IMG/VR virus record: IMGVR_UViG_3300042555_000374
Coordinates: 1 to 28,265 of that record
Source: a virus
Reading direction: 5' to 3' (one strand)
DNA length: 28,265 nt
Position numbers and translations under genes: made by a program. The notes under the pieces were generated by a model that worked only from the letters and a program-made list of their open reading frames with translations, was not told the origin of the DNA and did no database searches. Below are positions 2,895-26,299 of this stretch, one piece after another; within the stretch, counting starts at the first letter, position 1, and every line of letters begins with the position of its first letter.

Positions 2895-4841
2895 TCACGA
2901 AATGTAAGGTCCAGGATCTTGGAACTTACCGTTTAAATTAATCTCGAAGTGTAGGTGATGTCCTGTAGAATTTCCAGTATTGTTGACCTGCATAATTTGC
3001 TGTCCTGCCTTTACCTTATCTCCCACTTTTACCTTGAGAGACCCCTCGTTTGCATGGGCATATACAGATGTATAACCTCCACCATGATCAATGGTAATAC
3101 GTAAACCATATCCAGAACCTTCACCATAGTGTTTACCTGCATTTTGCCAACCTGCTTTAATAACTGTACCATCTTTGACTGCGAAAACTGGAGTACCCTT
3201 TGGTGCTCCAATATCATACCCTTTATGTCCTGTAGATGCACCAGAGGTAGGTGCTTGCCTTGGTCCAGTTTTACTTGTAATTCTACCCTTACCACCAGTT
3301 GGGTGAGTCCAACCTGCTTTATTGATCGGTCCAGGAGATGACGGAGATACACCATTTTGCTGATCTGCCTGCACTTCAGGATCATCTGCTGCTGGTGGGG
3401 TTGGTGCGGGTGCACGTGTGATTGCTTGGAATGCCGTATGGAAAGAATCCTTAGCAATTTCCAAAATCATATTATGTGCTACTGGAGTCATCTTGTGGTG
3501 AATCGCGGTAATCATCCATACACCAGAAAGAAAGGGATCCCAATGGTTTTTTGGATCTGATTTATCTGCACTGTCTCCGACCTTGGGATATTTAAAGTTG
3601 ATAATCTTACCAACTTCAGCGTCAGTTCTTCCAGGAACTGTAATATGCATACGCAATCCAGAAATATCTTCAAGAACGCTTTGTCTCATACCCAACCATT
3701 TATCTGGTGCATAGTCTAGTAATTCATCGTCACTAGTAGTAAGAACTTTTCTATGCACAGGACGGAAGAAACGTTTAGACAATGCTGAACGAGTTACGTT
3801 GGCAGGATATGTCATATTATCTTTTGATTTCTCATCAAATGTTGCTTTACCATTTTCAATACGGTAATTTTCCATATGAATAATATCAGGATATGAATAT
3901 GAATAATCGTGTGGTGCGTTTGTCGCTTCTTTAATCATAATATCGAAAATTGTTGTAGTGCTGGCGAATCTTCCTTGATCCTGCGACTTTAGAATATCTA
4001 CTTGTTCATTAAAACGAATATCAGATACAGTGTTGAAACCTTTGTCCAATCCTGGTTTGGAAGTATCAAAAGTTATTCCCCCAGTCAAATTTGTTTCAGG
4101 GTTGACAGGTTTTTGTAAATATACATACTCAGCAAATACAGAACTATCGTCTAATTGACTCTTAATCAAATTGTCAATAGAAGTAAAATAGAATTGTCTA
4201 GTAGTTTCATAGAACAAGAAACTCGGCGATTTTTGTTTAGCACCGATAGATCTTTGCGCTACATAATTGAGGCAACGGAATGGTGACCACATATTTGCAA
4301 CGAATGCAATTTTACCCTCGTGTGGAGTATCTGCGATGACCATCGGAGTTTCATCTTTATTATCGATTCCACCGAAGCAACGTTTTTGCTTTAGATAATC
4401 AGTATAAAGTTTATCTGCGATTTCATCGGTAGTACCCTCGTACTTTTTACTTACTTGAGTAATATTATCACTGACTGCTTCCATGGAACAGAAGTATAAT
4501 GCATACATTTGTTCACGGTCAGCATTCAACATTCTATTCTTAATCGAATAAATTGAAAATGTCTTTTTGATACTTTCACCATATTCATCACCAAAAGATG
4601 GAGTTTGGACCCAAAGATTTAAAAGTTCGTCTCCAACGAGAGGTAATCCAGAAAGAAGTTCTTTCGAGTCTACAACAATCAGAACACCCTGTAGTGCATT
4701 GGAAAATATATCCTCATAGATGTTAAGTTCGACAATAAAATTTTTGATGTCAAGAACCTCGCCGTTGACACTTTGAATCTCAACAGTCTTAAAAGAAACG
4801 TCACCTGGATTTGATAACTGTTTTGATTTTGGATCCGACAT
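2895..4841 (-). CDS. 27: Baseplate hub protein gp27-like fused to M23 (LytM) peptidase
   Basis: This is a 648-aa protein. Residues about 1-490 look like an extended T4 gp27-type hub (T4 gp27 is about 390 aa), including the region LKSQDQGRFASTTTIFDIM. A Pro/Ala linker and a basic segment follow. From about residue 535 to the end there is an M23/LytM metallopeptidase domain: HxxxD (H539, D543), a mid-domain His in YAHAN (H596) and HLH (H629, H631). These are the zinc ligands and catalytic His expected of the family. Together with the GH19 domain in the neighbouring gene, the hub carries both a glycan-strand cutter and a peptide cross-bridge cutter. The gene lies 1 nt downstream of the gp53 gene. 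The M23 call is very firm; the hub call rests on position and partial similarity. Confidence 0.85.
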   Translation of the reverse strand: MSDPKSKQLSNPGDVSFKTVEIQSVNGEVLDIKNFIVELNIYEDIFSNALQGVLIVVDSKELLSGLPLVGDELLNLWVQTPSFGDEYGESIKKTFSIYSIKNRMLNADREQMYALYFCSMEAVSDNITQVSKKYEGTTDEIADKLYTDYLKQKRCFGGIDNKDETPMVIADTPHEGKIAFVANMWSPFRCLNYVAQRSIGAKQKSPSFLFYETTRQFYFTSIDNLIKSQLDDSSVFAEYVYLQKPVNPETNLTGGITFDTSKPGLDKGFNTVSDIRFNEQVDILKSQDQGRFASTTTIFDIMIKEATNAPHDYSYSYPDIIHMENYRIENGKATFDEKSKDNMTYPANVTRSALSKRFFRPVHRKVLTTSDDELLDYAPDKWLGMRQSVLEDISGLRMHITVPGRTDAEVGKIINFKYPKVGDSADKSDPKNHWDPFLSGVWMITAIHHKMTPVAHNMILEIAKDSFHTAFQAITRAPAPTPPAADDPEVQADQQNGVSPSSPGPINKAGWTHPTGGKGRITSKTGPRQAPTSGASTGHKGYDIGAPKGTPVFAVKDGTVIKAGWQNAGKHYGEGSGYGLRITIDHGGGYTSVYAHANEGSLKVKVGDKVKAGQQIMQVNNTGNSTGHHLHFEINLNGKFQDPGPYIS

Positions 4842-11825: not shown

Positions 11826-12746
11826 TTAGTCGTCAGCGAGACTCGAGAAGTAACTCATCGTGTCATCGTCACTGTCTTCCTTCCATGGCGGCGAATCATC
11901 GGTCACCGTAGAAGTTGCAGACTTCATCTTAGTTTCAACGAACAGTTCGTCTTCAGCATCCAGCGGATTAACCTTCTCGGCAGTTGCTACGCGAGCACCA
12001 CCCGAAAGGACTGCATTCAACTTCGCCTTCAGTTCGTCATATGACTTGAAGTTTGAAGGATCGAGGAACGCTGCGAGAGAATGGGTCTTACCCCAGATCT
12101 GCTCCAACTTATCTTCGTCATCAGACAAAGGAGTTGGTCCATCAAATTCCGATTTATCGTAGTTACGATAACCTTCAACCTGACGAATGCGCAACTTGAA
12201 GTTAGCACCTTCCCATAGATCGAACGGATTGACTGGTTGTTCATCTTCGAACGTAGGTTGCATCACGTCCTTAATCTTATCGAAGATCTTCTTACCGTAC
12301 TTATACAGGAAGACCTTACCTTCGTTCTCTGGATTCGCGGGATCGCGAATAACAAGGACGTTCGAGATGTAAGTGAGGCGACGCTTCTGCTTGCGAGCAA
12401 TTTCCTTGTTCGCTTCGACGCCTGAGTTCCACAGTTCGGAATTCAGTTCGCCAACAGGATCTGGTTTGTTGAGAGTAGTAAGCGAGTTTTCGATATACCA
12501 CTTACCAGTTGGACCTTGGAAACCATGGTCCCATACGCGAACCCACGGAAGTTCTTCACCTGCAGGAGCAGGGAGGAAGCGAAGCACTGCTTGACCGTTA
12601 CCTGCCTTATCGACAGTCGGTTTCCAGAAACGATCATCGTCTCCACGCTTTTCTGTAGTGGGGTTTGCGATTGACTCGACTGCCTTCATGAGCGAGTCAA
12701 AATTTCCGCGTTGCTTGCGGAGTTCGGATAGAGAATTACTTGACAT
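11826..12746 (-). CDS. 32: Single-stranded DNA-binding protein gp32
   Basis: The 306-aa protein (T4 gp32 is 301 aa) has an N-terminal basic self-assembly segment (SNSLSELRKQRGNFD). The core OB-fold has WKPTVDKAGNGQAVLRFLP, WVRVWDHGFQGPTGKWYIENSL and a highly conserved DPANPENEGKVFLYKYGKKIFDKI. The acidic C-terminal tail (KEDSDDDTMSYFSSLADD) would recruit partner proteins. The zinc-binding Cys/His cluster of T4 gp32 is missing: the region after YIEN has no cysteine and reads SLTTLNKPDPVGELNSELWN. The protein coats ssDNA in replication, recombination and repair. A ribosome site AAGGACA precedes the ATG. The gene ends at the bidirectional terminator and follows gp59 and gp33 in one operon, as in T4. 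Confidence 0.95.
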   Translation of the reverse strand: MSSNSLSELRKQRGNFDSLMKAVESIANPTTEKRGDDDRFWKPTVDKAGNGQAVLRFLPAPAGEELPWVRVWDHGFQGPTGKWYIENSLTTLNKPDPVGELNSELWNSGVEANKEIARKQKRRLTYISNVLVIRDPANPENEGKVFLYKYGKKIFDKIKDVMQPTFEDEQPVNPFDLWEGANFKLRIRQVEGYRNYDKSEFDGPTPLSDDEDKLEQIWGKTHSLAAFLDPSNFKSYDELKAKLNAVLSGGARVATAEKVNPLDAEDELFVETKMKSATSTVTDDSPPWKEDSDDDTMSYFSSLADD

Positions 12747-12948: not shown

Positions 12949-13533
12949 TTATTTTACCACCGTCCCAATCTCCTGTTCTAGTTGGCGGATGTAGTGATCT
13001 TTGTCTATTTTGACAAAGGGTTTATATTTCTTTACCAAATGCGCGAAGTCATTCCAAATAAAATCATTCGATAAAGAACTATAGTCGGTATTATCTATTA
13101 TACCTATTTTTGCCAAAATAGCAATAGATTCTAGAGAAATCTTTTTACCAAGATACATTTTTAATACTTTAGGATGTTGCCCATTAATTACTTCGAATGG
13201 GTCTCCGTCTGCATAAAGAGTTTGGATATCCTGTTTAAAAGTATATCCCAATTTCTGCATGCGTGTTTGCCATTCTGCATAGACATCATTCGCCTCTGTA
13301 TCAAACACACCACCCCACTGATTCCCAGAAACAAAATTAGCAACTAGAAAATCAATGATTTCAGTTTTTGTTTTTGTTTCTGCCAACTTTCGCAACGCAA
13401 ATAAGTCTTTACGTTTCAGAAATGCTTCTCTGGAAACCTTTACCCCTTTACGGGATTTGGTGATATCAAAATCAGGTCGAGTGAAATGTAATCTCAACGA
13501 GAGATACAATTGATAAACTTTATAAGAGTCCAT
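12949..13533 (-). CDS. 59: gp59 helicase loader
   Basis: The 194-aa protein (T4 gp59 is 217 aa) shows the T4 gp59 pattern: VYQLYLSLRLHF near the start, KGVKVSREAFLKRKDLFALRKL, then LVANFVSGNQWGGVF, YAEWQTRMQKLGYTFKQDI and a C-terminal half containing PKVLKMYLGKKISLESIAIL and NDFIWNDF. gp59 binds fork DNA and gp32 and loads the gp41 helicase. Its start overlaps the gp33 stop by one base (TGATG), and it lies directly upstream of the small gene and gp32. The T4 order 33-59-32 is therefore conserved. Confidence 0.88.
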   Translation of the reverse strand: MDSYKVYQLYLSLRLHFTRPDFDITKSRKGVKVSREAFLKRKDLFALRKLAETKTKTEIIDFLVANFVSGNQWGGVFDTEANDVYAEWQTRMQKLGYTFKQDIQTLYADGDPFEVINGQHPKVLKMYLGKKISLESIAILAKIGIIDNTDYSSLSNDFIWNDFAHLVKKYKPFVKIDKDHYIRQLEQEIGTVVK

Positions 13534-13796
13534 CAGAGAGGCAGAATCCCATCATCGTTTTTCAACATGTTGAGTTGTTGTGCCTCGACTCGAATTTTTT
13601 CTTTTAGTGATGAACTAATAAGACCAGCAACAGAACTAACCTCAATATTTCGTTTCTCACAATAGTCAATGAGAATATCCATACAGGGTGATCTAGAGTC
13701 TCTTGCAAGTTTTTCAATAAAGATGGAAAACTCTGCTGCTGTCTTAAATTGCTTTGTAATCAAAAATTCATCAGTTACTGGAATTTCTTCCGTCAT
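13533..13796 (-). CDS. 33: Late transcription coactivator gp33
   Basis: The 87-aa product (T4 gp33 is 112 aa) matches the compact gp33 type of cyanophages and pelagiphages. It has an N-terminal TDEFLITKQFKTAAEFS helix, then CMDILIDYCEKRNIEVSSVAGLISSSLKEKIRVEA, and ends with QLNMLKNDDGILPL. gp33 bridges host RNA polymerase and the sliding clamp to activate TATAAATA late promoters. Three exact copies of that box occur in this window. The start is 3 nt after the hydrolase stop. Length and order support the call. Confidence 0.82.
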   Translation of the reverse strand: MTEEIPVTDEFLITKQFKTAAEFSIFIEKLARDSRSPCMDILIDYCEKRNIEVSSVAGLISSSLKEKIRVEAQQLNMLKNDDGILPL

Positions 13797-13799
13797 AAT

Positions 13800-14420
13800 C
13801 TATCCTGCGTAAAAAATATGTCTACCGATTTTAGTAACTCTCTGTAACTTCCAACCTGGACTAACATAGTCAGCATGGTAGAATAGAACGTTACTATTAA
13901 CTACTATACGCGTATTGATCTCAGAAGTCAATACTTTTTTCGCAATATCTTTTGCTTCAGCATATAATACTGGGTCTTTGGCAGGTCGACGCATACACGT
14001 CCAACTGAACTGACAGACCCTACTTGTTCTCTGATAAACGACAGAGCAAACGTTTGATGGATATTTTGGATTGCGAACTCTATTTAAAGTTACACCTGCA
14101 ACCGCGATTTTACCCTTTCTGGGTTCATTACCTGCCTCGTAGTAGATGTTATCTGCTAGACAAGTTATTGCTGCAGAATTTTGTGACAGGTATTTTTGTT
14201 TTTCTTTTTTAACGTTTTTTTGTATGATTTCTTCTTGTTTTTGTAAAATTTCTTGGTTTTGTCGTTTTACGCTTTCGACTTTCTCATATCCACCGACAGT
14301 GTATTCCATTGCGGTGTCTTCGATTCTTTCTTTTGCATAACTCAATGATACACAATATATTACAATTACCACTAAAATTGAAGAAAGAATTTTCAATGTC
14401 TTCTTATTAAAGGAAGGCAT
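13800..14420 (-). CDS. Membrane-anchored SleB-like cell wall hydrolase (probable endolysin)
   Basis: I place the start at the ATG at 14420, because AAGGAA lies 8 nt upstream. The frame can be extended to 14492, but that part runs into the tmRNA region. The 206-aa protein has a basic N terminus and a hydrophobic segment (about residues 10-27, ILSSILVVIVIYCVSLSYA) that can act as signal peptide or signal anchor. A charged helical spacer (about 30-80) and a Hydrolase_2/SleB-type catalytic domain follow: CLADNIYYEAGNEPRKGKIAV, GVTLNRV, CQFSWTC and FYHADYVSPGW. The Glu of YYEAGNE is the expected catalytic acid. An exported hydrolase in a phage most likely serves lysis. It lies just downstream of the tmRNA gene, and its transcript may read through from there. 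Confidence 0.8.
   Translation of the reverse strand: MPSFNKKTLKILSSILVVIVIYCVSLSYAKERIEDTAMEYTVGGYEKVESVKRQNQEILQKQEEIIQKNVKKEKQKYLSQNSAAITCLADNIYYEAGNEPRKGKIAVAGVTLNRVRNPKYPSNVCSVVYQRTSRVCQFSWTCMRRPAKDPVLYAEAKDIAKKVLTSEINTRIVVNSNVLFYHADYVSPGWKLQRVTKIGRHIFYAG
13903..13931 (-). promoter_or_regulatory. Sigma70-type early promoter upstream of gp33-gp59-gp32
   Basis: Minus-strand TTGACT (13931-13926), 17-nt spacer, TATAGT (13908-13903) lies inside the hydrolase gene. It points at gp33, whose ATG is 107 nt downstream of the -10 box. It starts TTGACTTCTG like the tmRNA promoter. Confidence 0.65.
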
Positions 14421-14499: not shown

Positions 14500-14851
14500 T
14501 TATATTTAGGGTTTAAAGACTCCCAATAGTCTCTGTTTACCGTTGATTTAGAACGGTTGGCGGTTTATTCTGTTTCGAGGGAAACCGCCGAAAACCCAAT
14601 GCTAGCTTATGCAGCTAGAGCAAAGGCAACGTTATCGTTTGCATTTACAGTTTGTGGCGCTTTGCCAGTCAATCAGTCTCGGTATTCCTATTACACGAAA
14701 ATCGAATTCCAAGGTCACCCCCATCATAGATACACCATCATCCCTCACTTTAGTAGGCACCCCTTTCGGGTCGGACCTTGATGTATCTATGGTGGAGGTG
14801 GAGGGAGTCGAACCCTCGTCTTTCCGCTTTTATTGTCAACTGTCAACAACT
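14500..14851 (-). ncRNA. ssrA: Circularly permuted (two-piece) tmRNA, phage-encoded
   Basis: On the minus strand the 3' acceptor part comes first and the 5' coding part second. Acceptor piece: P2 strand GCGGAAA (14827-14821), T-arm GAGGG-TTCGACT-CCCTC (14817-14801), acceptor strand CACCTCC (14800-14794), A, encoded CCA ending at 14790. Coding piece: acceptor strand GGGGGTG (14722-14716), which forms 7 pairs with the above including the G3-U70 pair needed for alanylation. Next come a D-arm-like segment with GGAATTCGA and the P2 strand TTTTCGT (14701-14695). The tag frame GCA..TAA (14642-14607) encodes ANDNVAFALAA. A hairpin CTAGC/GCTAG lies around the stop. Further helices are 14559-14566/14582-14589 and 14539-14544/14552-14557, enclosed by 14509-14514/14592-14597. 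The coding-piece 3' end near 14500 is estimated. tmRNA with SmpB rescues stalled ribosomes and tags proteins for ClpXP via the LAA end. Confidence 0.93.
14723..14789 (-). other. Intervening segment joining the acceptor and coding pieces of the permuted tmRNA
   Basis: These 67 nt run from just after the encoded CCA to the first G of the coding piece. The ends pair as a long stem, ATAGATACATC (14789-14779) with GGTGTATCTAT near 14729-14739. This brings the two mature ends together. Permuted tmRNA precursors are cut in such a segment to leave two RNA pieces held together by base pairing. Removal by host tRNA-type nucleases is inferred. Confidence 0.85.
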
Positions 14852-14858
14852 GATATAT

Positions 14859-14889
14859 TATTTATACTATAGTTTTGGTCAGAAGTCAA
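14859..14889 (-). promoter_or_regulatory. Promoter of the tmRNA gene: sigma70-type and late box superimposed
   Basis: Minus-strand TTGACT (14889-14884), 17-nt spacer, TATAAA (14866-14861) forms a strong host-type promoter. The same -10 region reads TATAAATA (14866-14859), an exact T4 late box. The RNA could therefore be made both early and late. The -35 box contains the TGA stop of the upstream nuclease gene. Confidence 0.8.
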
Positions 14890-15563
14890 GCCAAATAATA
14901 ACCATTTTCATAATAATCACGAGTTCGAAGCAATTCTTTCACCCAGTTGTCTCGCTTCTCGATAAACACCTGAGGTTCATCACCCTCGACTGCAATAAGA
15001 ACTACCAACCACGGAACAGGAATCCCAGTTCGTTCCTCATACATGATTGCATATGCTGCAGTCTGCATAAAGTAAGAACTGATATGTTCTTTCTTTTTGG
15101 GTTTGCTAGATGTCTTGAAGTCGATGACTGCTCGGAGACGGTTATAATCGGCGATACAGTCGACACGACCTGCCATACGGAGGTGGTCGCTGTAGAGCGC
15201 AAGTTCTTGGCAGTGAATGTCGCCAATCGGATCGAGAACAGGTTTGAACTTCTTGAACATCTCAACGTCAAGTAGAGATGCTTTCGTAGTTGTATACGCT
15301 TCTTCTAAATCTTCGTTCTTAAGATATGATTCAGTTAATGAGTGAATCTTAGTTCCACGAGTTGATGCTTTGTTCGAGATCTTATTCGCTTCTTCTTCAC
15401 CAACACGTTTTCGCCAAGCAGCGATTCCATCTCTGGATAGAACCCCGAGAACAGTGGTAGCAGAAGGATACGCTACACCAGAGGCATTAACGTAAACTCT
15501 GCTACCATCTTCGTTCGTAGTTGATTGTGCGAAATCTTCATAGTCATATATCGTCTTAAACAT
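14886..15563 (-). CDS. PD-(D/E)XK (RecB/Cas4/MGME1-like) exonuclease
   Basis: The 225-aa protein has the RecB-family nuclease order: TRGTKIH (residues 68-74), E120, GRVDCIAD with D135, the IDFKTS motif with D148 and K150, and QTAAY (Q167-xxx-Y171). These are the acidic metal ligands, the catalytic Lys and the QxxxY motif. Such single-domain nucleases are common in T4-like marine phages. They are thought to process DNA ends in recombination or degrade host DNA, but the role here is not shown by the sequence. It has its own TTGACT/TATAAT promoter 6 nt upstream of the ATG. Its stop codon is embedded in the -35 box of the tmRNA promoter. Confidence 0.85.
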   Translation of the reverse strand: MFKTIYDYEDFAQSTTNEDGSRVYVNASGVAYPSATTVLGVLSRDGIAAWRKRVGEEEANKISNKASTRGTKIHSLTESYLKNEDLEEAYTTTKASLLDVEMFKKFKPVLDPIGDIHCQELALYSDHLRMAGRVDCIADYNRLRAVIDFKTSSKPKKKEHISSYFMQTAAYAIMYEERTGIPVPWLVVLIAVEGDEPQVFIEKRDNWVKELLRTRDYYENGYYLA

Positions 15564-17622: not shown

Positions 17623-19050
17623 TTAAAAGACCTTCACATTATAGATATTTTGGAACATGGCAGCATCCTTTTCATCATTTACCATTGGAAATCCTTTAAT
17701 GTTCAGACTAGTATTAAGTAACATCGGACAACCTGTTTCTTCATACCATCTTGTCAGCAATTCAAACAATCCTGGATGCTGTTGCTTGTTTACAGTTTGG
17801 ACGCGAGATGTGCCATCAACGTGAACGATAGCAGGGAACTTTGTAGGAAATTTACATCTTGCAGTAAACTGCATGTAAGGGGATACTTCAACTGGCATGT
17901 CAAAATACTCCGCTGCATGTTGCTCAAGGATGACTGGTGCGAATGGTCTAAACTTTTGTCTGCGTTTGATTGCATTTACTCTGTCCTTAATGTCAATTCT
18001 GGTTGGATCTGCCAACAAACTCCGATTACCCAAAGCACGTGGACCAAATTCTGCTCGCCCATTTGCAACACCCACTATACCGTCTTTTTTAAGAAAAGTC
18101 AATAGATTTTCTACAGGATATTCCCCCTCGATATTCTCGCCGAGATATGGACCTTGCCAGTTTAATTTTCTGCGATTGTTTGCAGCAATAGCACCAAGAC
18201 TGCTCCCTGAATCTCCAGGATTTGGCATGACCCATACATTCTTGAAATACTTTAACGCGATATGATTTGCACTACAGTTTAGCGCACAACCACCCATAAG
18301 AACAAGATTTCCTTGTAAGGTGTCTTTCATCTTTGCACGAATCAGTAATTTTTCAAATTCTTCTTCGTATACTTTTTGCGTTGCTGCGGCAACACTATAA
18401 TGGTCCAAATCAAAGTCATCATTACGCCACCAACGACATCCGCGATGAAGGTTTTCAGATTCCCAAAGATTTCTAACTTCGTCATAATATTTTTCGGCAT
18501 CACCATATGCTACCATCCCCATTAAGATATATTCATCTTCGTTTGCTTTAAGACCAACTCGGTCTGTCATAGCAGAATAGAACAACCCCAGTGACTTGGG
18601 ATAATCCATTGACCATTTCTTTGTAAGGTTACTACCAGAACATTTCCAGATTGATGCTGTATCAAATTCACCGATAGCATCGATTACAAGAGCAGTCGCA
18701 GATTCGAACCGAGAAGTATAGAAACCTGCAGCGGCATGCGACTCATGGTGCGAGGCAAACTCGACAGGGACATCAAGTCCAAATTCTTTTAGATACTGCC
18801 TTACGCTAAATCGAACTAATCCCTGCCCAGAAAGAAATCTACGCATCGCTCTCAATTTGGGTTTCTCATACCAATGTATCTTTTCTGGTTTACCGAACTT
18901 CAGCGCTGCGTTGATCAGATCGACATTTAGATGTTTGTCATTTTTAACGCCACTATATCGTTCGACGTGTGATGCGAATAGAATCTCGTCCCCGCTAACA
19001 ACAGTCAACGCCGCATCATGTGCGGCGGCAGATATACCCCATTCAATCAT
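17623..19050 (-). CDS. NodU/CmcH/TobZ-family carbamoyltransferase
   Basis: The 475-aa protein has the two-domain layout of O-carbamoyltransferases. The N-terminal Kae1-like domain has HDAA at 11-14, the metal-binding HHESHA at 101-106 and GGCALNC at 253-259 with PNPGDSGSSLGA. The C-terminal domain has FGPRALGNRS at 335-344, FRPFAPVIL and LLNTSLNIKGFPMV. Known members use carbamoyl phosphate and ATP to carbamoylate hydroxyl groups on sugars, antibiotics or nucleosides. Key motifs look intact. It is slightly shorter than typical NodU (about 560 aa). It follows the radical SAM/SGNH genes after a 68-nt gap. No good ribosome site precedes the ATG at 19050. The substrate cannot be read from the sequence; a modified nucleotide, glycan or peptide are all possible. 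Confidence 0.9.
   Translation of the reverse strand: MIEWGISAAAHDAALTVVSGDEILFASHVERYSGVKNDKHLNVDLINAALKFGKPEKIHWYEKPKLRAMRRFLSGQGLVRFSVRQYLKEFGLDVPVEFASHHESHAAAGFYTSRFESATALVIDAIGEFDTASIWKCSGSNLTKKWSMDYPKSLGLFYSAMTDRVGLKANEDEYILMGMVAYGDAEKYYDEVRNLWESENLHRGCRWWRNDDFDLDHYSVAAATQKVYEEEFEKLLIRAKMKDTLQGNLVLMGGCALNCSANHIALKYFKNVWVMPNPGDSGSSLGAIAANNRRKLNWQGPYLGENIEGEYPVENLLTFLKKDGIVGVANGRAEFGPRALGNRSLLADPTRIDIKDRVNAIKRRQKFRPFAPVILEQHAAEYFDMPVEVSPYMQFTARCKFPTKFPAIVHVDGTSRVQTVNKQQHPGLFELLTRWYEETGCPMLLNTSLNIKGFPMVNDEKDAAMFQNIYNVKVF
18074..18102 (-). promoter_or_regulatory. Promoter-like site inside the carbamoyltransferase gene
   Basis: Minus-strand TTGACT (18102-18097), 17-nt spacer, TATAGT (18079-18074). 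It shares TTGACTTTTC and a G just before the -10 box with the intergenic promoters, so it is probably real. It would transcribe the last part of this gene and the 92-aa gene. Confidence 0.45.
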
Positions 19051-19118: not shown

Positions 19119-19970
19119 TTAATTTTTTGTATTAATGATTTTATCATACAATTCCTCTGCAAATAATACATGCGCTATCTCGGGTGGGTGCTTAAACCCA
19201 CACGGAGGCGGCACCGTTCCACGCATCTGGTTGTTATACCAAGTAAACAACGATGTGGTTGGATCAATGCTATAATCTAGTATCTCTTGAAATATTTTCT
19301 CGAACGTCGGTAAATATTGCCAATCAAAATAAATGTCTGCAAAAATATTGCCATGCTTTGATTCCGGAGCATTATAAAAAAGAAGTTCTTTTGGAAAAAC
19401 TGGTTGCATGTAAAAATCGAAATTATTTACAACGCAAAAATTCTTAAAATTTTGTAATGAAAACAGATAAGTTTGCATGACTTTATAGTCGTTATAATGC
19501 ATGTCACTATCTTGAACCGAACGGTCGCTCATGACTCTTGATACAGGTACGCCTGTGTTTTCTGGCGAAAAGGACAAGTATCTATGCGGGGTTGTCACCC
19601 CCAAAAAGATCAGATCTGTTTTCGGATTTAACTTTCTAGTATAGTGACCGCGAAATAAATCTAGAGTCATATGATCCACTGCAGATCCAGGTATAGCATA
19701 ATTAACATGCTCCAAACCAAGTTTATCTGCCAATTTAGCAGCATAACTTCGTTTCGAAGAAACATTAATGTATTCCCTAGAAGTCATCTTGCCTGCACGA
19801 GAAACATAGTCTTCAAATTTATGCATGGGTTTTCTATCAGCAATCCACTGATGTTTCATTTTATTGCACTCGTCAAAACTAATCCCAAGCACTTCATGGT
19901 CCATTAATTCTGACCCCGCAGTAAATGAACATCCGAATGAAATTAGTCGTGTTTTCCCTTCAAGTTTCAT
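19119..19970 (-). CDS. SGNH/GDSL-type hydrolase
   Basis: I place the start at the ATG at 19970, which overlaps the stop of the radical SAM gene upstream as ATGA. A longer frame to 20057 would lie entirely within that gene. The 283-aa product starts MKLEGKTRLISFGCSFTAGSE, with block I GCSFTAG and nucleophile Ser15. It then has a Gly/Asn-containing block (NYAIPGSAVDH), a strand LIFLGVTTPHRY in the place of block III, and near the C terminus HPPEIAHVLFAEEL, the block V His-containing segment. SGNH enzymes are esterases or acetyl/acyl transferases acting on glycans and lipids. The ATGA coupling makes it part of the radical SAM cassette. Substrate unknown. Confidence 0.75.
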   Translation of the reverse strand: MKLEGKTRLISFGCSFTAGSELMDHEVLGISFDECNKMKHQWIADRKPMHKFEDYVSRAGKMTSREYINVSSKRSYAAKLADKLGLEHVNYAIPGSAVDHMTLDLFRGHYTRKLNPKTDLIFLGVTTPHRYLSFSPENTGVPVSRVMSDRSVQDSDMHYNDYKVMQTYLFSLQNFKNFCVVNNFDFYMQPVFPKELLFYNAPESKHGNIFADIYFDWQYLPTFEKIFQEILDYSIDPTTSLFTWYNNQMRGTVPPPCGFKHPPEIAHVLFAEELYDKIINTKN

Positions 19971-21112
19971 TTTCTGTGATCTTTTGTCATTGGTCTTGGA
20001 TTTTCTACTTCTTTTCCATCCAAAAAGGTGGATAGACTGTTTCGTAAATCTACGCACTGTTTTCGCATTTTACCATCTTGGGGTAAAGAAGGTATCTCAG
20101 CGTCATACAATGCAATCACTTCTTCGAGTTCTTTCCGTGACATATTATGACACGCCATGTGGTCGGGATAATACAAGTAGTTGAAATTTAATGGGTTTGA
20201 ATTAGTAAAACGTACATATTGATTTACTATCTTGTAAAGAGCAATTGTGTCTCTGACGTTCATTTTACTTATTGTCATAACGATAGAAACATTTGATGTG
20301 TGTAAATCGAATTCCTTTGCTATAATTTCTTCTTGGCAGTATTTTAAATTATCCAAAACTTGATCCCACTTAGCACCAACTCTAAGTTTCTCAAACTTAT
20401 CACCATAAGAATCTATACTGAAAGACAAAACAATACCTCTGAATTTTTTCCAGATATCAATCTCTTTTCTAGTTGGTCTTTGTGTTCCATTCGTATTGTA
20501 TTGCAATATTGTTTTTTCTGGATTAGATAATTGATCCAACCACTCAAAGTGTGTTTTATTTAGTAGAGGTTCTCCACCTGCAATATCAATTCTAAAATAT
20601 CCATTTTCTCCAGGATTTAATTTCTTATACTGTTCTAAATCATAAGACCAAGCAATCTCTTCGTTTAAACGATCGTATGTATACCTGTCCAATTTTCCTT
20701 CGCGTAAGAGTTCGGTTGCAATTGCAGTCGAGCATGCAGGAGTGCATATGGTGCAGCGAAGATTACATAATCTCCCAGTTTTTAACTGTAGATATTCTAG
20801 AGAAACTTCTTCAGGTGGTGTTTGCATTGTTCCATTATGCAACATCCACATATCTTGTTGACGTTTACTGTCTCGCCCTTCTTCTTCTGCAAATTTACAT
20901 TGATTACAACCACTCGGCCAAACACCTTGCGATAGTTGGTCACGATATTCTTGGAATTCTTCTTTTAAAATAGTCTCTGCATTTTCTATATCTACAAGTT
21001 TACTTTTTTTATCTACTTTATGAATGAAAAGACAACATGGTGTTAAGTAACCATCAGTGTCAACGTGCACGGATTTCCACATAGACGGACAATAAATTTT
21101 AGGTTCGCTCAT
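19967..21112 (-). CDS. Radical SAM protein A with N-terminal auxiliary-cluster (twitch/SPASM-like) cysteines
   Basis: I start it at the ATG at 21112, which overlaps the preceding stop as ATGA (381 aa). The frame could extend 5 codons. The N-terminal module has C8, C26-C27 and C69-x2-C72, spaced like half-SPASM/twitch auxiliary [4Fe-4S] binding sites (WKSVHVDTDGYLTPCC is typical). The radical SAM motif CNLRCTIC (C116, C120, C123) follows, with the SAM-binding IAGGEPLL, the YNTNGT strand and SIDSYGDKFEKLR. Enzymes of this type cleave SAM to a 5'-deoxyadenosyl radical and often act on peptides or sugars. It is last of five tandem paralogs and is coupled to the SGNH gene. Confidence 0.88.
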   Translation of the reverse strand: MSEPKIYCPSMWKSVHVDTDGYLTPCCLFIHKVDKKSKLVDIENAETILKEEFQEYRDQLSQGVWPSGCNQCKFAEEEGRDSKRQQDMWMLHNGTMQTPPEEVSLEYLQLKTGRLCNLRCTICTPACSTAIATELLREGKLDRYTYDRLNEEIAWSYDLEQYKKLNPGENGYFRIDIAGGEPLLNKTHFEWLDQLSNPEKTILQYNTNGTQRPTRKEIDIWKKFRGIVLSFSIDSYGDKFEKLRVGAKWDQVLDNLKYCQEEIIAKEFDLHTSNVSIVMTISKMNVRDTIALYKIVNQYVRFTNSNPLNFNYLYYPDHMACHNMSRKELEEVIALYDAEIPSLPQDGKMRKQCVDLRNSLSTFLDGKEVENPRPMTKDHRK

Positions 21113-22398
21113 ATTGATAGATACCAATCTCTTACCTCTGGGTCAATAATTGCAGTTAGACTCTCAAAGGTGTGTTTTCCAAGAAGAAACTTTTCTCTGT
21201 GTTGCCAGTTTTTCTTCATCAGTTTTAACATTTCCGGATCCGAATAAATCGGGTTATTGCTTTTGTCCAATTTATACGATTTTAATATTGCAATCGTTCT
21301 TTCTTTTCCTCTCAAGGAACACTCTTCAAACCGTTTAATGGCATGATCAAGTATTCGGTCAAAAATATGTTGTGGGTATAACCGAATATCTAGGAATCCT
21401 TGTTGAGTCTGTTTGTTAATATGATTGAATAATTTATGTGAGTGAAGTTCTGGATCATACGGTTCATAAAATTCAAACCACCTATCGATATCCATAAGAA
21501 CTGGAGCAGACATAACACTAGAAAGACCGAATTGGTTTCTTTCGTTTAGTCTAGAATGGTATTCTTTCCAGTTGGCAGAAACAGTATCCCATGATGCGCC
21601 ATCTCTACAAAATTCAAAAGTTTCATGCGTGCCATCTAGGCTTGCCTGTATACTTGGTTGGTAAAATTTTAGAAGTTCGGGTATTAGTTTCCCCTTCCAG
21701 TGAAGGCGAGTCAGATTGCTGTTATAATGAATAAAGATATTATATAAAAATGCAGGATCTTCGGATTGAATTTCTAATAATTTTTCAACCACTTTCCAAT
21801 GCACATGCGACATCATTGGTTCGCCGCCAGCCCAATAAATCTTCGTCAATCTTCGCTGGTCTAGACACTCAATAATTTCTTGTGCCATAGAATCTTCAAA
21901 ATCATAATCTATGACGAATTCTTTACCAGTCGCCCACATTTTAGGTCGCTGTCCCCACATATCAGCGAACAGTGAAGCATGCGTCGAACTGTATATTGGT
22001 CCACAACTCAAACACTGCAGATTACAATGTATTGTTCGATAGTCAAAATATGTAGGAAGCACTGAAGCAGAACCATCATCATTCGTTTTGCTTATGGTTT
22101 CGGCAATTGTTTCTTCTTCACTCTGCTGACCCCTCCAACTCTGTTGGCGTAAAGATTCAATGTTCTGTTCTTCATTTTTATAACAGACTGAACAGGCATC
22201 AATCTTTTCTCCTGCTATCATCTTTTTTCGAACATCTTTCATTACAGAAGAATTCCAGAAGTCCTTGGTTTCCGTCTTTTCTTCCGAAACAATGTCATCT
22301 GATATACAGCAAAGTTTTCGCTCGTATTGCGATCCGATGTAACTATGATCCCATGGATATTTACAAATACTTTTATTATTTTCAGTATTGATAGTCAT
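21109..22398 (-). CDS. Radical SAM protein B with N-terminal auxiliary-cluster cysteines
   Basis: This is a 429-aa protein. N-terminal cysteines C12, C30-C31 and C69-x2-C72 (ICKYPWDH, KLCCIS, CSVCYKNEE) match the auxiliary-cluster pattern of its neighbours. The radical SAM core starts with CNLQCLSC (C125, C129, C132) and has YWAGGEPMM, HYNSNLT and ASLDGTHETFEFCRDGASW. The start at 22398 overlaps the end of the next upstream radical SAM gene by 17 nt; the stop overlaps gene A as ATGA. The C-terminal 150 residues are not shared obviously with A and carry no SPASM motif. The substrate is unknown. Confidence 0.88.
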   Translation of the reverse strand: MTINTENNKSICKYPWDHSYIGSQYERKLCCISDDIVSEEKTETKDFWNSSVMKDVRKKMIAGEKIDACSVCYKNEEQNIESLRQQSWRGQQSEEETIAETISKTNDDGSASVLPTYFDYRTIHCNLQCLSCGPIYSSTHASLFADMWGQRPKMWATGKEFVIDYDFEDSMAQEIIECLDQRRLTKIYWAGGEPMMSHVHWKVVEKLLEIQSEDPAFLYNIFIHYNSNLTRLHWKGKLIPELLKFYQPSIQASLDGTHETFEFCRDGASWDTVSANWKEYHSRLNERNQFGLSSVMSAPVLMDIDRWFEFYEPYDPELHSHKLFNHINKQTQQGFLDIRLYPQHIFDRILDHAIKRFEECSLRGKERTIAILKSYKLDKSNNPIYSDPEMLKLMKKNWQHREKFLLGKHTFESLTAIIDPEVRDWYLSI

Positions 22399-23575
22399 AA
22401 TTGAATATATCTTTCCACGGACCCATTTTTCTACTTAGTTGAACAACGTCTAAGTATTTATTGCCTTGTTGCCAATGCAAATCGTTTTGCGATTCAACAC
22501 GAAGATAAGATTTCATCGTTTCCGTTAGAATCCAATTTGAGTATGGCGACTCTTCATAGAGTTGCGTTAGATCTTTCTTGAATTGTTTAGAGGCACAATT
22601 TAATGAAAGGTAATCGGGAAAGACAATAAAGTTTTGGTTTATTGTTGTGTGGGGTTTTAATTTGGTCAAAGGGACTGCCCACTCATAGAACTCTGGAAGA
22701 AATGGTGCATTCAACCATTGTATACTACATGTAATATTTAATGCCGCAATATGTGGATTCTCTAACAATTTTCTAATATTTTCATTCGACCTATCCCAAT
22801 CATTCGGATAACGAATAAACTTGTTCTTATCTCCGACTGCATCCATGCTACAACCAAGAGTTACTACCTTAAAGTGTTTCCAGTAATCGCTAAACGATTC
22901 ATCATATGTGGTGCAGTTTGTATTATAACTTATGTGAATATTTTTAGCGACATCCCACTCAATCAATCTTTCGAGCAATTTCCAATGCATTGGCATAATG
23001 AACGGTTCGCCGCCATTAATATACAAGTATTTTAGCGAATCTTTGTGTTCGTATAACTGATCGATAATATCCTCATTGAACCATTGGAAATTATCAAAGT
23101 CAGATACATTTTTTGTCATGAATGGTAGTTGATCAGACCATTCTTTATAGTCAGTAACAAGAGAAGAACTAGAATCTGGGTAACACATCAAACACTTTAA
23201 GTTACAAAGATTACTCAAGCGAATATCCAGAAACTCTAATTGAGGTTTCTCAATATTTTCCCAACGATTATTCTCCGTTATTCGACGAGACTTCCCACCA
23301 TGTTGTTCAATTTTATAACACCCCTCGCATGCGGTGGGATATTTGTGATCGAGCATTTCTTCTCGAACTTTATTAACAGAATAACTATTAAAAATATCAT
23401 TTATAGTGTGCGTTTTAAGATTGAGCATTCTTCCATGTTCATCTTTTGCAAACCCACTATCTGGTCCATTCATCTTAGAAACGCAACAAATAGAAACGTT
23501 TCCGTTTGGATGGAGGTTCATGTGGTTAAACGGTAGGGCACAATACCCATCGTTTCTTAAAGAGTGTTGAACCAC
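22382..23575 (-). CDS. Radical SAM protein C with N-terminal auxiliary-cluster cysteines
   Basis: This is a 397-aa protein. The auxiliary set is C12, C30-C31 and C83-x2-C86, in the context CALPFNHMNLHPNGNVSICC and CEGCYKIE. This is nearest to a standard SPASM/twitch half-motif. The radical SAM motif is CNLKCLMC (C124, C128, C131), followed by YINGGEPFIM, SYNTNCTTYD and GCSMDAVGDKNKFIRYP. It overlaps radical SAM D by 19 nt at its start and B by 17 nt at its end. It is one of three members with a CC pair (A, B, C), as opposed to CH in D and E. Confidence 0.88.
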   Translation of the reverse strand: MVQHSLRNDGYCALPFNHMNLHPNGNVSICCVSKMNGPDSGFAKDEHGRMLNLKTHTINDIFNSYSVNKVREEMLDHKYPTACEGCYKIEQHGGKSRRITENNRWENIEKPQLEFLDIRLSNLCNLKCLMCYPDSSSSLVTDYKEWSDQLPFMTKNVSDFDNFQWFNEDIIDQLYEHKDSLKYLYINGGEPFIMPMHWKLLERLIEWDVAKNIHISYNTNCTTYDESFSDYWKHFKVVTLGCSMDAVGDKNKFIRYPNDWDRSNENIRKLLENPHIAALNITCSIQWLNAPFLPEFYEWAVPLTKLKPHTTINQNFIVFPDYLSLNCASKQFKKDLTQLYEESPYSNWILTETMKSYLRVESQNDLHWQQGNKYLDVVQLSRKMGPWKDIFNYDYQY

Positions 23576-24894
23576 TGTATAAACTCCTCTGGGAATACAT
23601 CTATTGGTTTATTTCTACGAGCACTATATTGAGAATAGAACTTTTTAAAATCTTTGCGATTCTTCTCAAGATCAGTATCGTAAGAATGCGGTGTTTCAAT
23701 AATATTCACATAAGAAATCAATCGTTTAACATCGCTTCTCTCTGTGAATGTAAGATTTGGATTGTTGCAATTATCTTCATACCAATCAGAAAGTTGTTGA
23801 TACGATTTTTGTCTCAGAGCATCAGGCAAAACTGTTAAACTTTGAAATGCGGGAAACCGCAGGAAATTAATACTCATACTAATACGATTTCGATATTTCT
23901 GTTTCCATATCATAACTTGATTCATGAAATCAGTAATATTGAACAAACACAATGCATTAATCGTCATCATAACAACAATGCGCTTGACGTTAGATTCTCC
24001 AAGAATCCGCTCAACATTATCACACCAGGATTCATAATCCAACCCATCGCGAATATACTCTGCTTGCGCACCCGTAGTTTCCATACTTGTGAATATAGTA
24101 AGATTATTAATATCGTGCGACCTCTCTATCAGTCTATCGATAATAGATTTCTTTGCACCAAGGTTACTGTTGATTCCCAATTCGAATTTGTATTTTTCTT
24201 CTGCAAACAGATCGATGAGTTTCCAAACATCTGTACTCATCAGCGGTTCGCCGCCAGTAACTCTTAGCGTACGAAGTTCCTTGCTTAGTTCTGGCCACCA
24301 TTCCCAAAATGCCTTGATGTATGGATTTTCTGATTTCTCGTGACAATTATTTGTAGTGCCATCATGCTTGAATGCTCCACCACCCGAAGTTTCTAGATCA
24401 TAATGCCCATGCTTCTTTATATCTCGTTCCCAAGTTGTGCTAAAGTTTGCATTGCAATAACTGCATGCGAAGTTACATGTTCTATCAAACATAACTTCTA
24501 ACGTCGGCGGAATAATACGAGCATCTGCTGGTGTATCGAACCAAGATTGCATTTCTTCTGGTGTAAACTGCAATGACTTAAAAACACGATCTGAAATATA
24601 ATCAGAACCCATGCTCTCAATTTTCCAACAGTAATCGCACTCAGAAGGTTTATGTCCCTCTTTCATGAGTTGGCGCATTTTTATTTTATGGTCAGTATTA
24701 TGCAGTTTTGCAGGATCTGATAAAATCTGCTCCGGATCTATCTTATGAACAGGAGGAAGATGGCAACTGCTAGTTTCTCCGCTGTTTAACCACAGAGTAC
24801 TATTTCCCCATTTCGCACCGCAAAACGATGCAGATTTAGAATTTAGTATACTGTTTCTGAATTGAAGTAATCCGTCATCCATAATAGTCATCAT
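23557..24894 (-). CDS. Radical SAM protein D (close paralog of E)
   Basis: This is a 445-aa protein. N-terminal C25, C44-H45 and C86-x2-C89 take the place of the auxiliary cysteines of its neighbours. The core has CNFACSYC (C140, C144, C147), TLRVTGGEPLMS and INSNLGAKKS. It shares long stretches with E: FCxAKWxxST, SGETxSCH, CDYCWKIE, NPYIxAFWEWWPxL and TGGEPLxS. The two probably arose by tandem duplication. Three start codons are possible (24894, 24891, 24882). All overlap the end of E, which ends at 24875 within the sequence ATGGATGA. A specific extra segment with HEKSENPYIKAFWEWW lies between the cluster motif and GGEP. Confidence 0.87.
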   Translation of the reverse strand: MMTIMDDGLLQFRNSILNSKSASFCGAKWGNSTLWLNSGETSSCHLPPVHKIDPEQILSDPAKLHNTDHKIKMRQLMKEGHKPSECDYCWKIESMGSDYISDRVFKSLQFTPEEMQSWFDTPADARIIPPTLEVMFDRTCNFACSYCNANFSTTWERDIKKHGHYDLETSGGGAFKHDGTTNNCHEKSENPYIKAFWEWWPELSKELRTLRVTGGEPLMSTDVWKLIDLFAEEKYKFELGINSNLGAKKSIIDRLIERSHDINNLTIFTSMETTGAQAEYIRDGLDYESWCDNVERILGESNVKRIVVMMTINALCLFNITDFMNQVMIWKQKYRNRISMSINFLRFPAFQSLTVLPDALRQKSYQQLSDWYEDNCNNPNLTFTERSDVKRLISYVNIIETPHSYDTDLEKNRKDFKKFYSQYSARRNKPIDVFPEEFIQWFNTL

Positions 24895-26299
24895 CCATCA
24901 AATATGCAAGTTCTGGGAAAGTATCAACGAATGATGTTTTCCTGCGTTTATCTAAACTGCGAGTGTAGTTCCTGAAGTCTTTATACAAAGACTGTGATTC
25001 TTTTGTCGATCTCATGTAGTCGACCAATCGTTTTACTTGGTCAACTTCTTCTAAATAAAATGTTTCTTGAACAGACTTCTTCGACGTCAATTTATGTTTG
25101 TCGATATAATCTATCCACAAATCGCCATACTTCTGCTTATCTTCATCTGACAATAATGTTAAGCACAGCATTCGAGGCCAGCGAAGATATGACAGGTGAG
25201 TTCTTACTCTAAATTCGTGTATCTTACTGTAATATTTCAATCGCATTTCTCTGATATATTCCAAATATTCCAGAAGAGTTGGTGCGCTTGTCAAGTTTAT
25301 TGTTGTCATGTAATGCAACCGTGTTGTATTCGGCGTATTATCCAGAACATATTTACAGTTCTTTTTGAACTCATCAAATTGCATACCAAATCTAGAATAC
25401 TCGGCATGTTTACCCGTGCTCTCTAGTGATGTATATACGTCGAACAATTTAATGTTACAAGAGATTCTATTGATGTATTCCACCAATTTCTCGACTAATT
25501 TATCAGGAACATTGAGATTAGTATTAATCGCGAGTGTTAAATTAGGATTTGGGTTCTCCGCGATATAATCAAGAACTCGCCAAGTATGTTTACTGAGCAA
25601 GGGTTCGCCGCCAGTTATTCTAAACGTATGAAGATTGGGATAGAGGTCAGGCCACCATTCCCAGAAAGCATCAATATATGGATTTTGTTCTTTGCGATGA
25701 ATTGGAAGTTTTCCAACTTCCTTCAACCATCCAAGATCGTGCAATTTGAAATCTTCCAATTCAATTGGACCGTGCGTTTCAATTTCTTCCTGCCACCTCG
25801 AGGAACTTTCTGGACTGCAGTATACACATTTAAAATTGCATGTAGATTCGAATGCAACTTCCAGATATGACGGATCGATATTCGCGCCATCGCCAGATTT
25901 GACAATTTCATCAATGTGCGGGAGCGCCCACGAATACGTAGATTTGTATATCCGATCACTCATCCAATCTTTGTTTAGATTCTCAATCTTCCAACAATAA
26001 TCACATTCTTTAGTTTGCACGCCATTAAGCATGTCAATACGTGCTGCCTTTTTAACAGCAGTATTGTGAATACCCCGTGGGTTATCTTTAATATCTTCTA
26101 GTGTAATCTTGTGCCGTGAAGGGTGGTGACAACTATGTGTCTCGCCACTATACAAAAGAATGGTTGACTGTTTCCATTTTGCTGCACAAAAAGATGGACT
26201 AACCGAGTTGATTACTTCTCGTTTTTCTTTGAGAAAATTCCAGTATGAATCTACTGAATGGACGTCTAGATTATGCTCTTCGTGTGCACCATCACTCAT
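24875..26299 (-). CDS. Radical SAM protein E (close paralog of D)
   Basis: This is a 474-aa protein. Auxiliary ligands are C38, C57-H58 and C99-x2-C102 (FCAAKWKQST, THSCHH, CDYCWKIE). The radical SAM motif is CNFKCVYC (C154, C158, C161), then FRITGGEPLLSKHTW, INTNLNVPDKL and a C-terminal region with a long helical tail ending in FVDTFPELAYLMDDDYYG. The ATG at 26299 overlaps the stop of the methyltransferase-like gene as ATGA. It is the first radical SAM gene of the series in transcription order. Whether the H next to C57 is a cluster ligand cannot be decided from sequence. Confidence 0.87.
   Translation of the reverse strand: MSDGAHEEHNLDVHSVDSYWNFLKEKREVINSVSPSFCAAKWKQSTILLYSGETHSCHHPSRHKITLEDIKDNPRGIHNTAVKKAARIDMLNGVQTKECDYCWKIENLNKDWMSDRIYKSTYSWALPHIDEIVKSGDGANIDPSYLEVAFESTCNFKCVYCSPESSSRWQEEIETHGPIELEDFKLHDLGWLKEVGKLPIHRKEQNPYIDAFWEWWPDLYPNLHTFRITGGEPLLSKHTWRVLDYIAENPNPNLTLAINTNLNVPDKLVEKLVEYINRISCNIKLFDVYTSLESTGKHAEYSRFGMQFDEFKKNCKYVLDNTPNTTRLHYMTTINLTSAPTLLEYLEYIREMRLKYYSKIHEFRVRTHLSYLRWPRMLCLTLLSDEDKQKYGDLWIDYIDKHKLTSKKSVQETFYLEEVDQVKRLVDYMRSTKESQSLYKDFRNYTRSLDKRRKTSFVDTFPELAYLMDDDYYG

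Follow-up and report, generated by a model that had tools for sequence, protein, structure and literature searches.

The window, by which we mean the whole stretch of DNA analysed, is a linear IMG/VR record of 28,265 bases with the gene content of a T4-like phage: an exonuclease, gp32, gp33, gp59, PhoH, and baseplate and tail proteins are all matched by PHROG profiles. At its centre of interest the gene order is exonuclease–tmRNA–endolysin–gp33–gp59–gp32, all on the minus strand. A PD-(D/E)XK exonuclease (14886–15563; phrog_298, 1.1e-69; PF12705) lies upstream of the tmRNA, and a cell-wall hydrolase/endolysin with a hydrophobic N-terminus (13800–14420; PF07486, 6.1e-23) lies downstream, followed by a gp33-like late promoter transcription regulator (13533–13796; phrog_254, 8.1e-17), a gp59-like helicase loader (12949–13533; phrog_269, 8.6e-48) and a gp32-like single-strand DNA-binding protein (11826–12746; phrog_224, 3.1e-117). 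By reading, the hydrolase between the tmRNA and gp33 has the look of a signal-anchored endolysin. The window gp32 is closest to that of phage Melnitz (60% identical), and is 55% identical to that of HTVC008M. Elsewhere in the window, positions 19967–26299 hold five genes in a row with radical SAM matches, two with SPASM and two of the five below the Pfam curated cut-off; 17623–19050 encodes a Nol-like carbamoyltransferase (phrog_1601), which HTVC008M also has; and 16784–17323 matches a pyrimidine dimer DNA glycosylase family (PF03013).

ARAGORN calls one permuted tmRNA in the window, at 14516–14884 on the minus strand, with the tag ANDNVAFALAA. Two Rfam models match the same strand above their gathering scores, RF04321 (tmRNA_permuted) at 14607–14851 with 89.3 bits (E 3.4e-16, cut-off 47) and RF01849 (alpha_tmRNA) at 14559–14893 with 61.4 bits (E 8.2e-15, cut-off 50). 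Both the sequence and ARAGORN place the acceptor 3′ half before the coding half on the same strand. The acceptor piece (14790–14852, minus strand; from sequence, Rfam and fold) contains the P2 5′ strand CGGAAA (14821–14826; from reading and the cis versus trans helix test described below), the T-arm GAGGG-TTCGACT-CCCTC (14801–14817, as read in the sequence) and a terminal stretch at 14790–14800 made up of the acceptor 3′ strand CACCTCC (14794–14800), A73 (14793) and an encoded CCA (14790–14792); its 5′ end at 14852 would be the expected transcription start. An intervening segment of 67 nt (14723–14789), recognized from sequence and fold, contains a long stem and is expected to be removed. In the minimum-energy fold this stem has 13 bp, 11 of which use intervening bases, with a z-score of −4.9 and 0/200 shuffles folding as well. 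Beyond it follow the acceptor 5′ strand GGGGGTG (14716–14722, G1 at 14722), the P2 3′ strand TTTTCG (14696–14701, from sequence reading), the tag frame with its TAA stop (14607–14642; ARAGORN and relatives), and the 3′ part of the coding piece with post-tag stems and pseudoknot region (14516–14606), the end of which is approximate and set by the ARAGORN limit and the alignment of relatives.

The acceptor stem is of the alanine type, with 7/7 pairs including G3-U70, together with A73 and CCA, and CGGAAA pairs with TTTTCG across the two pieces through six pairs. The predicted mature ends, 14790 and 14722, fit this geometry. A preliminary description of the DNA had proposed a phage-encoded permuted tmRNA with this tag, the acceptor half in front, a TTCGACT T-loop and encoded CCA, seven acceptor pairs with G3-U70, P2 pairing across the pieces, an 11-bp stem in a 67-nt segment and a frame ending in ALAA-stop. 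All of this agrees with the ARAGORN call, the covariance-model search that it had proposed, and the T4-like setting.

The gene is preceded by a composite promoter, TTGACT-N17-TATAAATA (14859–14889, minus strand), in which sigma70-like −35 and −10 elements overlap a T4-late-like TATAAATA. The composite motif TTGACW-N17-TATAAATA is found once in the window against 0.00 times in shuffles, in line with the earlier claim of a promoter of its own with early-like and late-like elements. Of 33 distinct tag-clade relatives, 31 carry its exact form and two lack it, and of 57 other phage tmRNAs, 5 carry it and 52 lack it; shuffled upstream regions yield 0.005 matches per set of 90. On its own, TATAAATA is not above chance in the window (three matches versus 2.0 expected), and all three lie on the minus strand before the starts of the tail-tube cap, gp32 and the tmRNA. 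The sigma70-like elements suggest early expression of the tmRNA, and the putative T4-late element is, as a motif, both present and conserved in relatives.

An exonuclease scan of IMG/VR, of which the best 80 of 594 relatives were kept, gives 30 sequences that are 82–100% identical to the window exonuclease. One of them (L125) was left out as its contig ends 99 nt beyond the gene; in 29/29 testable close relatives among these best 80 of 594, a permuted tmRNA lies downstream of the exonuclease on the same strand. Their tags are ANDNVAFALAA (23), ANDNVAFAGYALAA (4), AANDNVAFEMRLAA (1) and ANDNFASEMRLAA (1), and the identical tag of the 23 is written in four different codings. For the 50 more distant relatives in the same best 80 (exonuclease 50–63% identical), ARAGORN calls a tmRNA in 31 within the stretch examined, L163 gains one by an Rfam match, eight further ones checked have no Rfam tmRNA match, and ten were outside the Rfam check. 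Since the tmRNA is found in only part of these 50, it is either dispensable there or beyond the stretch examined. One 150-kb relative carries eight phage tRNAs.

The acceptor stem was compared across 155 phage tmRNA loci, reduced to 90 distinct ones, and pairs in 90/90. G1-C72, G2-C71, G3-U70, G7-C66, A73 and CCA are invariant, and the remaining positions vary together with their partners: position 4 is G-C in 80 and C-G in 10, position 5 is G-C in 74, C-G in 14 and A-U in two, and position 6 is U-A in 66, C-G in 23 and U-G in one. Among the phage relatives, the P2 helix has a mean of 6.1 bp in cis versus 4.7 bp between unrelated halves.

The preliminary description had also taken the gene as a pointer to the host lineage, a suggestion with weak grounds: within the clan the highest score is that of the alpha model, but the T-loop is not GGCRGTA, and the TLD (tRNA-like domain) moves between phage lineages, as described below. 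For comparison with bacteria, 30 loci and 79 further places were taken from 145 bacterial matches, with one other record in addition, and ARAGORN called 103/113 bacterial loci examined; the tag ANDNVAFALAA occurs in 0/103 of these permuted tmRNAs. Several routes to a host were tried and rejected. A degenerate tag pattern (TAA stop only) has 0 matches in genome_contigs (bacterial species genomes) and 55 in viral_contigs. The alpha T-loop pattern retrieves three MAG contigs, none of them plausible, two with the tag ANDNEMALAA. By blastn against 385 genomes of one class, that of an uncultured alphaproteobacterial MAG, the best match is 33 nt at 91%, and most of the matches listed cover the T-arm region alone and may be tRNAs. 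These searches found no close relative in bacteria. Separately, Rfam finds a permuted tmRNA in a contig (L304, 1466–1495) of a MAG titled Euryarchaeota (G014); this contig may come from a phage or a bacterium and have been misbinned.

Gene anatomy, T4-like placement, conservation, base-pair covariation, promoter conservation and TLD exchange are what the sequences show. The reading of the locus that we prefer, with a probability of roughly 0.83, is a functional phage-encoded two-piece tmRNA, which would be made as a precursor from a phage promoter, would act with host factors in rescue, and would consist of two modules: the tRNA-like part, a contiguous cassette, recombines between lineages, and the tag module is bound to its lineage. 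One precursor would be transcribed early from the sigma70 elements, and perhaps late from TATAAATA. The subsequent steps (processing, charging, delivery and tagging) are modelled on established tmRNA biology: RNase P would cut at G1 and trimming of the 3′ end would stop at the encoded CCA, the acceptor stem and P2 would hold the two pieces together, host AlaRS would charge the RNA via G3-U70, host SmpB and EF-Tu would deliver the RNA to ribosomes that have stalled, and the tag, with its ALAA end, would mark the nascent chain for ClpXP or other host proteases. In this way, the phage could keep ribosomes free when its messages break or the host tmRNA runs short. A search of 14 related phage records, most of them fragments, found no gene for SmpB, so the tmRNA presumably relies on the SmpB, AlaRS and proteases of the host, and its function would depend on the host. 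Of the two roles suggested in the preliminary description, supplementing host rescue is compatible with the conservation of the functional parts, and is itself a role that we infer; retuning of tagging finds little support, as the tag keeps its ALAA end, although the exact tag is not found in the bacterial sequences searched.

The lack of SmpB in these records is consistent with a decoy, or a diversion of host translation, as are the sigma70-like elements that suggest early expression and the absence of the exact tag from the bacterial species genomes searched; tagging of host proteins in early infection is proposed in PMC9004378. A decoy would need neither a kept tag frame, stop codon nor G3-U70, yet all three are conserved, and the usual ALAA end of the tag is kept. 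We consider diversion unlikely, and ribosome rescue during infection would be the simplest role.

The case for two modules comes from exchange of the TLD. In the clade of the window, 92 loci were reduced to 37 distinct genes, five of which were left out of the trees. With the tag in common, three main TLD types can be distinguished by T-loop, TTCGACT (as in the window), GGCAGTA and TGCAACT; the GGCAGTA type scores 116–123 bits with RF01849 in six records. The flanks fall into group I, with gp33 approximately 90% identical to that of the window or more, and group II, with approximately 60%. Among the 37 genes, TTCGACT is found five times in group I and 12 times in group II, TGCAACT three and six times, and GGCAGTA seven and zero times, while the flanks of three more TTCGACT genes could not be assigned and the T-loop of one gene is TTCGATC. 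Between genes of the same TLD type in different flank groups, the TLD halves are 97.5 and 95.6% identical, compared with 77% for the exonuclease, 66% for the endolysin, 64% for gp33 and 60% for gp59. Different TLD types within the same group show the reverse, with TLD halves at 65.6 and 63.7% and flanks at 84–89%. In the pair L015 (window type, group I) and L150 (group II), the TLD halves are identical, with the exonuclease at 78% and gp33 at 63%. The types are named from the T-loop, which is in the 5′ half, and the 3′ half belongs to a different mature RNA; that the 3′ half tracks the type is hence the non-circular part of this evidence.

In a tree of endolysin and gp33, four changes are required for TTCGACT and four for TGCAACT, and the AU test rejects a single clade for each of the two (p 4e-65 and 4e-5, respectively), p-values that are optimistic since types and groups were chosen after seeing the alignment. 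The reverse test, on a TLD tree of 103 columns that carries a long-branch warning, rejects group I. Phages L021, L075 and L103 combine the TLD type of the window with different tags (ANDNNAYEGLALAA, ANDNNAYGAFALAA), and gp59 of L075 and L103 is just 33% identical to that of the window. The TLD thus behaves as a cassette, both halves of which, judged from these alignments, move together between phage lineages while tag and flanks stay.

Such a pattern could also arise in assembly, if short reads of co-occurring phages were joined at conserved blocks; all contigs are metagenomic, and the blocks are short (approximately 100 nt plus the intervening segment). Against this, TTCGACT recurs in group I in five metagenomes and TGCAACT in group I in three, as counted by IMG numbers, which makes an artefact very unlikely. 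Hardly credible is a passenger or remnant, i.e., a host ssrA fragment acquired by recombination or left by integration at ssrA and with no phage role: tmRNA genes are indeed common integration sites with fragments in prophages (PMC9004378), but the gene here is complete, adjoins the exonuclease in every testable close relative, keeps its acceptor stem and tag, is served by its own conserved promoter, and is accompanied by no integrase among the window proteins searched by profile (part of the ORFs).

The intervening segment varies in length. Its size is 3, 5, 53, 65, 67, 70 or 134 nt where the TLD type is the same, 3–149 nt across phage relatives, and 5–75 nt in 103 bacterial genes. Segments of 3–13 nt occur in 14/98 distinct phage tmRNAs, a set in which L119 and L086 are misregistered in the T-stem and from which a second ARAGORN hit in L190 was dropped. 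We rejected very short segments as a phage novelty, since 7/103 bacterial segments do not exceed 13 nt either, and short segments are therefore not special to phages. In L140 (3822–4126), L141 (7741–8045), L249 and L256, the segment is 3–5 nt, and a tiny loop closes the acceptor stem of the precursor. At seven loci with longer segments, Rfam finds no ribozyme or riboswitch, and the tmRNA alone.

In 18 related contigs (e.g., L450, 3001–3174) a small Cys-rich ORF with a CxC...CxxC pattern and a ribosome-binding site is nested in the intervening segment, lying between CCA and the 5′ acceptor strand in 18/18. It accompanies the 134-nt segment type and one close variant, is absent from the window itself, and, if its frame is followed into the coding half, comprises 57–58 residues. 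AGAGGA stands ahead of its ATG in 16/18 contigs, variable sites number 2, 4 and 14 by codon position (p 0.0009), and pairwise dN/dS is 0.05–0.18 in the ten pairs that differ sufficiently. L467 has a free-standing relative (3001–3168) directly ahead of a tmRNA, with 58% identity across 38 residues. There is no match worth keeping in Pfam, PHROG, PDB or isolate phages; the cysteine spacing is reminiscent of Bfd-like [2Fe-2S] proteins. The open-licence literature searched contains no report of a protein gene inside a tmRNA intervening segment.

For the functional two-piece tmRNA, a joint reading of these observations can be offered, towards which we incline somewhat. The permuted gene would be a modular platform: the permutation sets both TLD halves side by side, so that one exchange, a double crossover, could move the whole domain (P2, T-arm, acceptor and D-loop) and leave tag and promoter untouched. 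Such swaps may refit the RNA to different hosts or evade host nucleases. The intervening segment would serve as an insertion site, and with the ribosome-binding site of the Cys-rich ORF folded into the processing stem, a transcript might be either translated or matured. As the TLD is swapped while the tag is kept, the two functions appear to be under separate selection. Two-piece phage tmRNAs were known before, but the selecting force was not; cassette exchange suggests what phages may gain from having the gene in permuted form, and the TLD variants are natural material for testing the driver, whether SmpB, AlaRS, processing enzymes or nucleases.

With respect to known classes, the alpha model scores best among the clan models for the window tmRNA, but its T-loop TTCGACT differs from the GGCRGTA of the alpha type (GGCGGTA or GGCAGTA in 85/103 bacterial permuted tmRNAs), and for this reason we do not class the gene as alphaproteobacterial. 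With RF04321, the 28 window-type bacterial top matches listed score at least 148 bits, compared with 89.3 for the window. The beta_tmRNA model (RF01850, cut-off 84) reaches 45.7 bits, scored on L124, which stands in for the window with an identical exonuclease and an equal alpha score; cyano_tmRNA (RF01851) is not reported for the window in an Rfam output that gives the top-scoring model where clan members overlap. The alpha and beta models were both run on 40 phage records: 16 of the 18 in the window clade score higher as alpha than beta, and 20 of the 22 more distant ones higher as beta, which indicates that the exonuclease–gp33 locus has held different tmRNA types across lineages.

The closest described counterparts are in Methylophilales phage Melnitz and Pelagibacter phage Mosig. 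No tmRNA was found in the 12–13 kb examined of HTVC008M and S-CREM1. PMC9004378 reports a two-piece ssrA in Melnitz, and 53 two-piece tmRNAs among 18,146 phage genomes, 50 of them from marine or aquatic samples. As in the window, the Melnitz tmRNA (MZ577097; PMC9004378) belongs to a T4-like aquatic phage and lies between a PDDEXK nuclease and gp33/gp59. Unlike the window tmRNA, it has the tag ANDNYVPVDYALAA, scores 106.7 bits with RF01849 (window, 61.4), and is followed by a glutamine riboswitch (RF01739; L271, 3643–3691), which Rfam does not find beside the window tmRNA. Mosig (MT647606) has the similar order PD-(D/E)XK–hypothetical–SsrA–late promoter accessory protein, but the tag called by ARAGORN is GEDNFALAA, and only 48 nt of the tmRNA gene match the window (87.5%, blastn). 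A manA RNA (RF01745) follows the Mosig tmRNA (L002, 11370–11577). Since a two-piece tmRNA beside gp33 is published for Melnitz and annotated in Mosig, the kind of gene is already known; what is added here is its conservation beside the exonuclease, the composite promoter, the three TLD cassettes and the nested Cys-rich ORF.
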